Positions 3,582 to 13,800 of a stretch of 22,973 nt of DNA are shown one piece after another; position 1 is the stretch's first letter, and every line of letters begins with the position of its first letter. Position numbers and translations under genes: made by a program. The stretch spans positions 1 through 22,973 of IMG/VR virus record IMGVR_UViG_3300012013_000242, one strand, 5' to 3'. Source of the DNA: a virus. Under the pieces are notes generated by a model. It searched no databases. It had not been told where the DNA came from and saw nothing but the letters and a program-made list of their open reading frames with translations.

Positions 3582-4023
3582 AAACCCTCACAAAGCTAGT
3601 CATTGGGATTAGAGCGCACGGCTCAATGTCTTGTATGTCGTTTCGATCTACGCGACCGCCTAGAACAAGCCGCATATGAACTGACCTATCAATACGGGCG
3701 AAATAGACTTGATCGAGTAGACGAACAACTAACAAGAAAGGAACCTGAAAGACTTCCGAGATCGTTATGCCAGCTAGAAGCTTATGAGCGCCGATCATGT
3801 AGCCGCCTAGCTCCGCTATACGCTGCGCGGAGTAGTCGCGACATTTAACTTCTGCAACAGCGACGATCTCGTTATCCCTCATGATTGCGTAGTCGATCCC
3901 ATACTTAATGCCAAGCTTAGAAAACCTGCATCGCCATTTTTTCTGAAGAAAGAATGCGACAGAAGCTTCGTTAGCAAGATCTTTGTTGCTTTCATATAGC
4001 GGCCTAGAATGGGATTTGCTCAT
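3574..4023 (-). CDS. PD-(D/E)XK nuclease-like protein
   Basis: A 149-residue protein with the core of a restriction-endonuclease-like fold. There is a helix with E19 (NEASVAFFLQKKW), then GIDYAI with D44, then AVAEVKC with E58 and K60, which form the D-x(n)-E-x-K site. A helix with Q67 (SAQRIAELGGYMIGAHK) follows. Such single-domain proteins act as Holliday-junction resolvases, repair nucleases or VRR-NUC-like enzymes. Here it is between an SSB-like and a DUF1364-like gene in the recombination operon, so branch cleavage is a reasonable guess. It overlaps the upstream gene by 20 bases and the downstream gene by 8. Confidence 0.75.
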   Translation of the reverse strand: MSKSHSRPLYESNKDLANEASVAFFLQKKWRCRFSKLGIKYGIDYAIMRDNEIVAVAEVKCRDYSAQRIAELGGYMIGAHKLLAGITISEVFQVPFLLVVRLLDQVYFARIDRSVHMRLVLGGRVDRNDIQDIEPCALIPMTSFVRVYV

Positions 4024-10959: not shown

Positions 10960-11153
10960 TCCTGCCCCTTGGTTGCATGGCGGGCGAGAATTTCTTTAAC
11001 AATCTCGAACTGCCTATCTGTTAAGTGCCCGTAATAATTAAAGGCTGCAAGCATTTTCCCCGCGAAAATATTGTCTCTGCGTGGAAGCTTTGAGATAACC
11101 TGAATAAGGTCATCAATTGCTAGGACTTGAGCGAACTGCTGATCTATGTTCAT
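10956..11153 (-). CDS. Small hypothetical protein, first gene of the leftward block
   Basis: A 65-residue protein starting MNIDQQFAQVLAIDDLIQVI, with a central LPRRDNIFAGKMLAAFNYYG and a helical C-terminus. No family recognised. AGGAG lies 8 bases before the ATG and a good leftward promoter lies 40-70 bases upstream. Its stop is coupled to the next gene by ATGA. Confidence 0.7.
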   Translation of the reverse strand: MNIDQQFAQVLAIDDLIQVISKLPRRDNIFAGKMLAAFNYYGHLTDRQFEIVKEILARHATKGQE

Positions 11154-11176
11154 GAGACTCTCCTATACGATCTACG

Positions 11177-11205
11177 TTGACGACGAAATAATAGTAGCAC
11201 ATAAA
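11177..11205 (+). promoter_or_regulatory. Possible rightward promoter for the replication operon
   Basis: TTGACG (11177-11182), a 17-base spacer and CATAAA (11200-11205). The -10 is only moderate. It overlaps the leftward promoter below, so the two could not be occupied at once. Transcription would start about 11212 and give a ~220-base leader before the initiator gene. Confidence 0.45.
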
Positions 11206-11220
11206 AAACATTAAAAGCAA
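11191..11220 (-). promoter_or_regulatory. Leftward promoter for the 9664-11153 operon
   Basis: Read leftward, TTGCTT (11215-11220), an 18-base spacer and TACTAT (11191-11196). It lacks the GTTARGATYCTAAC operator found at the other three leftward promoters, so this operon is probably controlled differently. Expected start is near 11184. Confidence 0.6.
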
Positions 11221-11258
11221 AAATAAATATCTATAGCAGTATTGAACGCGATAAATTT

Positions 11259-11435
11259 TTGCTATCCGGGTTGCGCCGTTGCAGTCTTGTTGATAGGATC
11301 TATTCGCGCCGTGAGAAGCGCAACCGAGGGTCAGTATCAGTCTTTATCGGGCTGGCCTATCTGACCGTATCAAACCCGAAAGGGTGCGACCCTCCGGAAT
11401 TCTCACCGGATAGGTCAGCGCCGATAAGGATTGGC
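11259..11435 (+). ncRNA. Candidate structured 5' leader of the replication initiator
   Basis: This untranslated stretch carries unusually many complementary segments. GGTTGCGC (11269-11276) pairs with GCGCAACC (11318-11325). GCTGGCCTATC (11351-11361) pairs over 11 positions with GATAGGTCAGC (11409-11419), one of them G-U. ACCC-GAAA-GGGT (11374-11385) is a tetraloop hairpin. CTGACC (11361-11366) can instead pair with GGTCAG upstream (11329-11334) or downstream (11413-11418). GGGT can pair with ACCC on either side. Mutually exclusive stems ahead of a start codon suggest a regulatory RNA. It resembles no riboswitch class I know. The frame is open here, so an N-terminal extension is the alternative. 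Confidence 0.5.
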
Positions 11436-12065
11436 ATGAGTTTTCAAGTCATGGCATGGGCGGTTAAGCAGCAGACCGCAAACGCGGGGCAGAAGCTAGT
11501 TCTTCTAATGCTCGCAAATCACACGAACTCACACACGGGACAATGCAATCCATCGCATAAGCTCTTAGCGGAAGAGTGTTCGATGGGGGTTTCGACCCTA
11601 AAGGGGCATCTTTCCGCCTTAGAGCAGGCGGGGTTTATCTCTGTTGTGCATAACTCGGTAGAAGGGGTTTCGCTTCCGAATTCTTATACGCTAAATGTTG
11701 AGGGGGTAGGTCAAAATCTGACGGGGGGTGAGTCAGAATCTGACCGGGGGGTGGGTCAGAATCTGGCTACAAACCTAGAAGATAAACCTATAAATAAACC
11801 TAAAGATATATATCCTGCAGAGTTCGAGCAGTTCTGGTCGCAGTACCCAAGAAAGCAAGGGAAGTACGCCGCCTTCAAGAGGTGGTCCGTTGTAACGCGA
11901 GACTCTCCGGCGGAGCTTCTGATAGATCGGGCGAGGGCTTATCAGATTGAAACGCTAGGGCGGGATATGCAGTACATCCTACTTGCGGAAACATGGCTAA
12001 ATAAACGAAGATTTTTAGACCGTCCGACGCAGCCGCGTCGTAGCTTAAACGCATTAGCGGGGTAA
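11436..12065 (+). CDS. Lambda-O-like replication initiator (HTH protein)
   Basis: A 209-residue protein. Residues ~1-75 are a winged-helix domain (MSFQVMAWAVKQ, LMLANHTN, CNPSHKLLAEECSMGVSTLK, HLSALEQAGFI), like HTH_36/replisome-organiser proteins. A low-complexity linker (GVGQNL, then again GVGQNL, about 92-115) is encoded by tandem DNA repeats. The C-terminal domain (EFEQFWSQYPRKQGKYAAFKRW, TWLNKRRFLD) is the type found in phage initiators that load helicase. The primase-helicase gene starts one base after its stop. The ATG has AAGGA 6 bases upstream, and the open frame before it is treated as leader. By analogy with lambda O it should bind the iterons in its own gene and open the AT-rich region next to them. 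Confidence 0.8.
   Translation: MSFQVMAWAVKQQTANAGQKLVLLMLANHTNSHTGQCNPSHKLLAEECSMGVSTLKGHLSALEQAGFISVVHNSVEGVSLPNSYTLNVEGVGQNLTGGESESDRGVGQNLATNLEDKPINKPKDIYPAEFEQFWSQYPRKQGKYAAFKRWSVVTRDSPAELLIDRARAYQIETLGRDMQYILLAETWLNKRRFLDRPTQPRRSLNALAG
11702..11767 (+). repeat. Three tandem iterons inside the initiator gene
   Basis: Three ~21-base units start at 11702, 11724 and 11747. Each has a run of five or more G, then TRRGTCARAATCTG[AG]C. The core GTCAGAATCTGAC is a 6-1-6 inverted repeat, perfect in unit 2. Periods are 22 and 23 bases, about two helical turns and not a multiple of three, so the repeat is kept at DNA level and is read in different frames by the gene. This is typical of initiator-binding iterons. 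Confidence 0.8.
11771..11814. other. AT-rich segment with AAACCTA repeats, candidate origin unwinding element
   Basis: Directly after the iterons lies an AT-rich stretch with AAACCTA at 11771, 11784 and 11796 (spacing 13 and 12), ending in GATATATATCC. Iterons followed by AT-rich 12-13-base direct repeats is the layout of lambda ori and of many iteron origins. The origin call is inferred from this arrangement within an initiator gene. Confidence 0.65.
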
Positions 12066-12066
12066 C

Positions 12067-13800
12067 ATGGATCAGCTTCTACAGAGAGGGATACACCTAA
12101 ATCGATTTACACCCGGAGACTACAAAGCCAAGTGCCCGGAGTGCGCCGCAACGAGGAAGCCGAAAAACAGGGGCGATACGCCGCTATCAGTAAAGATTGA
12201 AGATAACGAAACGGCGGTATGGAAATGTCACAACTGCGGATGGACGGGCGCAGTAGGCGCGGCGACAAGGCCGAAGGCTAGGACGTACCGCCGACCGGAG
12301 ATCGTCGCTCCTGAGCCGATTTCGCAAGGCATTGAGGCATTCTTCGCGAGACGGTCGATCTCGAGAGGGACCGCCGAAAGGTTCGGGATTTACCGGGCTA
12401 CGCATTCATTCGGCGAAGCGCCGGAGAGTTGCGTCGCCTTCCCGTACTTTGTTGACGGCGAGCTAGTCAACGTCAAGTACAGGACTTCCGACAAACGGTT
12501 TAGGCAGGAGGCGGGTACGGAGCGCACTCTTTACGGGATTGATTTTCTTAAAGAGTCTTGGGGAACCGCGAAGCGCGTTGTGTTCGTCGAAGGAGAAATG
12601 GACGTAATCGCTTGCGCCGAGGCGGGGATTGTTGCGGTATCGCTTCCGGATGGGGCGCCAAAGGAGGCGAAGTTTGACGCAAACGATCGGCGCTTTGATG
12701 CGATAAGGGCGCACGAATGGATCTTTGAGGCGGAGTCTGTAGTCGTTGCGACGGACGGCGACGGGCCGGGGATGGCTCTCGCAGAAGAGTTAGTTCATCG
12801 TTTCGGGCGCGATAAATGCTCGAGGGTAAACTGGCCGGAGGGGGTTAAAGACGCAAACGATCTTCTCATGCAGTCCGGAGCTAAAGCGTTATCAGCACTT
12901 ATAAATTCCGCAGAGCCGTATCCAATCGAGGGGCTGTTTAGAGCAAACGATTATGCGGATCAGGTTCTCGCCATCTGGCAGGGCAGGATTCAGCGCCCGC
13001 TATCGACCGGGTTCTTGCTATTAGATCAGATCTACAAGATTCAGCCGGGGACGTTTCATCTCGTAACGGGGGTTCCGAATCACGGCAAGTCGAACTTTGT
13101 CGATCAGCTAATGGTAAATCTCGCGATTCAACACGGATGGCGGTTCGCGGTCTTTAGTCCCGAGCACTCGACGCCGCAACATCTCCGAAGGCTCGCAGAG
13201 AAGGTTGTGCAGAAGCCTTTCGATCCCGGCCCGACAGAGCGAATGACAGAAGAGGAGCTAAGGGCATCGATCGGGTGGCTTAACGAAATGTTCTTCTTCA
13301 TCGAGGCGCACGACAAGATCCCTACGATCGACTGGCTTCTATCAAAAGCGAAGTCGGCTGTAGGCAGACACGGCGTTCGGGGTATCGTTATCGATCCGTA
13401 TAACGAGATTGATGCAAGGCGAGACGGTAACAAGCGGGAGGACGAGCACATTCGCGATCTAATCTCGCAATGCAAGCAGTTCTGTCGCACGCATGACACC
13501 GTTATTTGGATGATTGCTCACCCGTCAAAGATGATGAGGCAACAAGACGGGTCGATCCCAGCGCCAACGCTCTACGACGTTTCAGGAGCGGCGCATTGGA
13601 ACAACATGGCGGACGTTGGAATCGTTGTTCATCGTGACTTCGACGCAGACTTAACGCGGGTAATTACGCGGAAAGTTCGAGAACAAGGCCTATACGGGAC
13701 GATCGGGGAGGCGCATTTTCGCTTCGATATCGTCCGTCGCATCTACGTCGAGCATCAGGTAGGTGCCCCGGTAGTAAGGCACTGGACGGAAGACGCATAA
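12067..13800 (+). CDS. Primase-helicase, T7 gp4-like
   Basis: A 577-residue fusion. The zinc-binding domain has CPEC (C23, C26) and CHNC (C54, C57). The TOPRIM domain has EGEMD (175-179) and ATDGDGPG (228-235). After a linker at about 275-300, the DnaB-like RecA helicase domain has the Walker A GVPNHGKS (335-342), FSPEHS, VIDPYNE as Walker B (441-447), and WMIAHPSK. The C-terminal VITRKVREQGLYG suits the nucleotide-sensing arm. The protein unwinds DNA 5'-3' and makes primers at the fork. Length and domain order match T7 gp4-type enzymes (~566 residues). It follows the initiator gene by one base. No DNA polymerase gene is in the window. Confidence 0.95.
   Translation: MDQLLQRGIHLNRFTPGDYKAKCPECAATRKPKNRGDTPLSVKIEDNETAVWKCHNCGWTGAVGAATRPKARTYRRPEIVAPEPISQGIEAFFARRSISRGTAERFGIYRATHSFGEAPESCVAFPYFVDGELVNVKYRTSDKRFRQEAGTERTLYGIDFLKESWGTAKRVVFVEGEMDVIACAEAGIVAVSLPDGAPKEAKFDANDRRFDAIRAHEWIFEAESVVVATDGDGPGMALAEELVHRFGRDKCSRVNWPEGVKDANDLLMQSGAKALSALINSAEPYPIEGLFRANDYADQVLAIWQGRIQRPLSTGFLLLDQIYKIQPGTFHLVTGVPNHGKSNFVDQLMVNLAIQHGWRFAVFSPEHSTPQHLRRLAEKVVQKPFDPGPTERMTEEELRASIGWLNEMFFFIEAHDKIPTIDWLLSKAKSAVGRHGVRGIVIDPYNEIDARRDGNKREDEHIRDLISQCKQFCRTHDTVIWMIAHPSKMMRQQDGSIPAPTLYDVSGAAHWNNMADVGIVVHRDFDADLTRVITRKVREQGLYGTIGEAHFRFDIVRRIYVEHQVGAPVVRHWTEDA

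Follow-up and report, generated by a model that had tools for sequence, protein, structure and literature searches.

A candidate RNA switch in the leader of a phage replication initiator gene, and its likeness to the int-alpA and c4 RNAs

Antisense RNA controls replication and early genes in several ways that bear on the leader described here. The antisense RNAs of plasmid replication (CopA/repA, RNAI of ColE2-type) come from the opposite strand, and the c4 antisense arises upstream on the same strand. In c4 of P1/P7, antisense segments located in RNA loops pair around the ribosome-binding site and block translation (PMC12197685), and the CI RNA of P4 pairs with seqA and seqC, which are upstream and downstream sites in the leader of the replication genes (PMC4825925). 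For another family, the int-alpA RNAs (RF02996), we found no mechanism in the literature searched, in which a single paper names it, as a list entry.

The leader examined here precedes the replication initiator gene of a virus record of 22,973 bases; this whole stretch is referred to below as the window. It contains no tRNA, and no DNA similarity to named phages was found for it. On balance, we favour the reading that the leader is a cis-acting RNA switch gating translation of the replication initiator, which provides a concrete, testable mechanism by which a phage may restrain its own initiator.

Folds of the initiator leader

The upstream neighbour of the initiator gene is on the opposite strand and starts at 11153, so that positions 11154-11435 form a divergent intergenic region. 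The features to which we refer, all on the + strand, are as follows.

11269-11325, +: hairpin A, an 8-bp stem (GGTTGCGC/GCGCAACC) with a 41-nt interior; pair probability 0.998
11326-11394, +: nascent junction, GAGGGTC (11326-11332) with GACCCTC (11388-11394), predicted for a transcript ending at 11400
11329-11366, +: hairpin B (antisense), with a GGTCAG/CTGACC outer stem, an inner stem (11337-11343 with 11349-11355) and the loop TTATC (11344-11348)
11337-11434, +: long hairpin B:C of 29 pairs, from folding and pair probabilities
11406-11414, +: CCGGATAGG, putative first target-like site, a weaker second copy of the SD-proximal CCGATAAGG
11420-11435, +: SD hairpin, GCCGAT-AAGG-ATTGGC, 6 bp, with AAGG in the loop, abutting the ATG
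11436-12065, +: replication initiator, HTH_36 / PHROG 270, 209 aa, ATG start at 11436, from profile matches
11702-11765, +: tandem iterons within the initiator gene, period 23, about 2.8 copies, with palindromic GTCAGAATCTGAC cores
12067-13800, +: primase-helicase (Toprim plus DnaB-like helicase), the next gene of the operon after the initiator

The leader does not appear to be coding. A frame from TTG at 11259 is open into the initiator, but the longer frame is not conserved in relatives, and the initiator homologues all start at MSF..M.WA, matching the ATG at 11436. We therefore take the leader to be non-coding, and the coding alternative that the preliminary description had set against an RNA is rejected. 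No sigma-70-like promoter was found by consensus for the leader.

The complementary segments listed in that description are all present. CTGACC (11361-11366) can pair with GGTCAG upstream (11329-11334) or downstream (11413-11418); the overlapping 11-pair stem (11351-11361 with 11409-11419) includes one G-U pair; ACCC-GAAA-GGGT lies at 11374-11385 and AGGGT-GCG-ACCCT at 11381-11393; and the 8-bp stem on the 5′ side (11269-11276 with 11318-11325) is that of hairpin A. Folding was compared with shuffled controls, as had been proposed, and the leader lies far beyond chance: the energies are predictions and the shuffles carry no model of phylogeny, but as + strand RNA a 179-nt leader folds at -76.5 kcal/mol, where shuffled sequences average about -58, with z-scores of about -4.2 to -4.5 (-4.48 from 200 shuffles, with 0/200 as stable, and 0/1000 in independent runs). 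The z-score of a 216-nt version is -3.70. On this same strand the leader also contains the 180-nt segment that folds most stably anywhere in the 23-kb fragment. Since the minus strand of the leader (z of -1.9) and its single-stranded DNA (z of -1.7) give much weaker values, it is the + strand RNA that is indicated.

The dominant structure is the long hairpin, in which 11337-11363 and 11367-11368 pair with 11405-11419 and 11421-11434, interrupted by a one-base bulge at 11420 and by three bulged bases at 11364-11366. It is an extension, overlooked in the preliminary description, of the 11-pair stem, and it places the Shine-Dalgarno (SD) sequence AAGGA and the spacer inside the stem. There are no mismatches and five G-U pairs, and all five of these non-Watson-Crick pairs are G-U when read as + strand RNA; for random DNA mismatches this would have a chance of about (1/6)^5, a figure to be discounted somewhat because the folding program picked the helix. 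The anti-SD segment of hairpin B, CTTTATCGG (11342-11350), has its complementary partner on the same strand, in CCGATAAGG (11421-11429). The interior of hairpin A holds a second anti-SD-like copy, CAGTCTT (11282-11288), and a target-like copy, GATAGGATC (11292-11300), with GATAGG occurring in the leader at both 11292 and 11409.

The helices were initially described as competing, and this is correct in part. At equilibrium they are not balanced: the pair probability of the long hairpin is approximately 1 and those of the named rival helices approximately 0, with the exception of AGGGT/ACCCT (0.71). The rivals do dominate in shorter nascent transcripts or when long-range pairs are excluded. Hairpin B is seen in folds of nascent RNA ending at 11366-11390 and in folds without long-range pairs, and the junction predicted for the 11400 transcript encloses the inner part of hairpin B together with ACCC-GAAA-GGGT; in folds of the growing transcript the long hairpin wins only once 11420-11430 has been made. 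With pairs restricted to a span of 60-75 nt, the predicted fold of the leader is a row of five local hairpins with an energy of -64.2 kcal/mol; only 10 of 1000 shuffles do as well when restricted in this way. (An energy of -32.9 obtained by hard constraint without the long stem was judged an artefact, pairs outside the forbidden region having been lost, and the span limit was used in its place.) The leader is thus modelled as having two defined states, a local one with the SD in a small loop and a long-range one in which it is buried.

The small loop is that of the SD hairpin, which had also been overlooked. Among 113 initiator leaders, two (that of the window included) have an SD hairpin abutting the ATG, and 1.6% of shuffles do. 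The fragment has 340 NTG triplets that come with an SD-like core, and 13 of them are preceded by a 6-bp hairpin of the SD type; because 12 of these 13 are at sites other than the initiator, the SD hairpin is weak evidence when taken alone. No U-tract terminator was seen in the leader, the sole terminator-like site being the SD hairpin followed by ATGAGTTTTC.

Relatives of the leader and the int-alpA RNAs

No near relative of the window's leader was found through homologues of the initiator, primase or terminase, or by sequence searches. Initiator homologues share no more than about 75% identity, along a part of the protein, and primase homologues reach 62%. The nearest known phage relatives are two IMG/VR contigs (L211 and L212) whose terminases are 100% and 88% identical, and these are short and contain neither the replication region nor the leader. 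No exact 21-mer of the leader occurs in viral contigs, and comparison of the leader by BlastN with a local set of about 200 loci gave shared matches only at the start of the coding part.

Leaders of homologous initiators nonetheless carry structured RNAs. Those of L006, L009 and L016 match RF02996 above the gathering score; L028 (34.7 bits) and L025 (27.4 bits) fall short of it; and L002, L173 and the variant L024 have the int-alpA plan by inspection. Five others (L189, L030, L186, L196 and L003) have long hairpins at the SD or close to it, with z-scores of -3.7 or below; these hairpins are unrelated to one another, which suggests that masking of the initiator start site has arisen repeatedly. 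We also note that in six loci (L113, L166, L168, L187, L191 and L114) int-alpA RNAs lie approximately 1.5-2.5 kb upstream of the initiator, outside its leader.

We collected 30 bacterial int-alpA loci by searches with RF02996, and 7 viral loci in addition. The three-way junction of the family covaries strongly, with changes on both sides at 15 of 16 pairs (0/500 shuffles). The loop of the third hairpin, which takes many forms (CCCUU and CCUUC among them), has complements at two places downstream, a proximal site just past the closing stem and the SD itself; as a rule the SD is presented in the loop of a small hairpin that precedes the ATG (at least 4 bp in 26 of 28 bacterial loci and at least 5 bp in 21 of 28). 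Partner changes in loop and sites track each other across bacterial and viral loci. When loops were swapped among the 30 bacterial loci, the native combinations gave -9.4 kcal/mol versus -7.7 for the swapped ones (P = 5e-5), with P = 5e-5 for the proximal site alone and P = 5e-5 for the SD alone; the 7 viral loci gave P = 0.005 for the proximal site, 0.0015 for the SD and 0.0005 overall, and a six-locus version was also run. Loops and downstream stretches in these tests were partly set by hand. As the loops exchanged were related ones, the test errs on the conservative side rather than the lenient one.

The genes following int-alpA RNAs vary, and include the initiator, a KilA-N protein (L312) and a NUMOD4/HNH endonuclease (L292). 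The phage whose initiator is closest to that of the window (L004) has an int-alpA-like RNA at 3936-4021, before a NUMOD4/HNH endonuclease gene; its loop, TTGAACC, matches two downstream sites, one of which, GGTTCAAC, adjoins the endonuclease ATG. From these comparisons of sequence we propose that the likely job of int-alpA is pairing of the third-hairpin loop with the proximal site and the SD, following the logic of c4 and P4 CI, which would give this catalogued family a function.

The window itself matches no Rfam family by covariance. The Rfam search that had been proposed gave no match for the window at gathering score and, at E up to 10 for 11150-11500, none to int-alpA; a mir-1420 match at E 1.1 was rejected as a chance match to a long hairpin. 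A new int-alpA model (R1), from which the mixed bacterial and viral alignment was left out as viral sequences were misaligned, gives the window a best score of 5.5 bits, and no covariance-model match to c4 (RF01695) was found in it. A P1-like stem (11326-11332 with 11388-11394) does form in the 11400 transcript, but the conserved int-alpA junction letters, CUA(G) / GAAAA / CUG, are absent at equivalent places. The preliminary statement that the leader matches no nameable class therefore holds for the window, but the leaders of its homologues do match int-alpA.

The likenesses to int-alpA lie in position and layout. In related phages int-alpA occupies the leader of the same initiator gene; its hairpin loop is complementary to the SD, as CTTTATCGG is to CCGATAAGG in the window; it has a proximal second site, for which the window has the weaker copy CCGGATAGG; and in bacterial loci an SD hairpin abuts the ATG, as does the 6-bp hairpin at 11420-11435. 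The two differ in that the anti-SD of int-alpA is in the third hairpin and forms 6-9 pairs, whereas that of the window is in the first inner hairpin and the complementarity extends to about 29. Like c4, the leader has an antisense segment in a loop that can pair at a ribosome-binding site, but the target of c4 is the mRNA of an antirepressor, and c4 itself is a processed RNA approximately 77 nt long. With P4 CI it shares a same-strand antisense in the leader of replication genes, and CTGACC might, as CI does, pair with a partner on either side, although the equilibrium fold uses the downstream partner only; CI, however, works by premature transcription termination, while the complementarity in the window covers the SD. 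The plasmid antisense RNAs are similar in that they exert RNA-RNA control of initiator translation through loop contacts, but they originate on the opposite strand and the antisense of the window is on the same strand. Because there is no covariance match and the junction letters are missing, we file the window with int-alpA-like RNAs as a non-member, and it is most likely that its leader works like int-alpA and c4 without belonging to either.

The proposed switch and its alternatives

Under the favoured reading of a switch gating translation, hairpin B would form first as transcription proceeds. As the SD region emerges, the hairpin B loop would nucleate pairing with it and zip into the long hairpin, turning translation off. 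Expression could be achieved if ribosomes captured the SD hairpin before the long hairpin formed, if hairpin B were cut away or titrated, or if a protein or partner RNA held the local fold. By analogy with c4 of P1/P7 and CI of P4, a B segment from a resident copy could also silence an incoming copy in trans. The preliminary description had suggested a switch in more general terms, and that part is supported by the fold z-scores, the occlusion of the SD, the two folds and the similar RNAs in other phages, but the ligand and antisense forms that it offered are not. An antisense RNA from the divergent promoter is not supported: the SD-complementary sequence is located upstream on the same strand, and the opposite strand folds weakly.

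Several other explanations account for part of these observations. The leader may be a plain SD-sequestering hairpin, with no antisense or switch, that holds down translation of the initiator or makes it depend on temperature, on the passage of ribosomes or on the speed of transcription. The dominance of the long hairpin in the ensemble is what would be expected of such an element, as are the unrelated strong SD-proximal hairpins (z of -3.7 or below) in the five homologous leaders noted above, but the alternative local fold itself beats chance (10/1000), and the SD hairpin and proximal site mirror the layout of int-alpA loci; we regard this simpler explanation as unlikely, though deserving serious weight. 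A similarly doubtful alternative is that the leader is a diverged but true member of the int-alpA/c4 group, whose processing yields a stable antisense RNA conferring immunity to superinfecting relatives. Its position and logic are those of the int-alpA leaders of the same gene, in the predicted 11400 transcript a GAGGGTC/GACCCTC stem closes off two hairpins, 40 nt short of the ATG, and one segment has possible partners on both sides of it, as P4 CI has in seqA and seqC (PMC4825925); the lack of a covariance-model match and the junction letters not found at the equivalent places argue against membership.

Less probable still is a DNA-level element, either an initiator operator composed of half-sites (autoregulation) or a cruciform-type origin element. 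GGTCAG/CTGACC does occur at 10 sites in the 23 kb, with three in the leader and two in the iterons, but it is as + strand RNA, far more than as DNA or on the minus strand, that the leader folds better than chance, the imperfect pairs of the long stem are all G-U, and the likely origin sits inside the initiator gene. A ligand-binding riboswitch or an autogenous protein-binding leader would share the two alternative folds, one of which occludes the SD, but there is no conserved aptamer-like core across relatives and no riboswitch of Rfam was matched even with E relaxed to 10; the small-molecule riboswitch of the preliminary description is thus without support, and we consider an explanation of this type highly improbable.

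A broader conclusion, which we put forward tentatively, is that early genes of phages and prophages, initiators included, are commonly under same-strand, two-site anti-SD switches, of which int-alpA is one form and the window a second, structurally independent one with a full-length antisense arm. If this is true, the lytic decision is placed under the control of RNA alone far more widely than in P1/P7 and P4, from which such control is known, and RNA-only control has evolved more than once before the same gene.

Iterons and possible DNA-level sites

The iterons at 11702-11765 are three imperfect 23-bp repeats with cores GTCA(A/G)AATCTGAC, and they encode GVGQNL repeats that are conserved in relatives. 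They are the probable replication origin, and their place inside the initiator gene makes an origin in the leader less likely. GGTCAG/CTGACC is an iteron half-site, present in the leader at 11329, 11361 and 11413, and judging from these motifs it is possible that the initiator binds to half-sites in its own leader. The strongest fold z-score of the fragment, -5.5, is that of the minus strand of 11611-11790.
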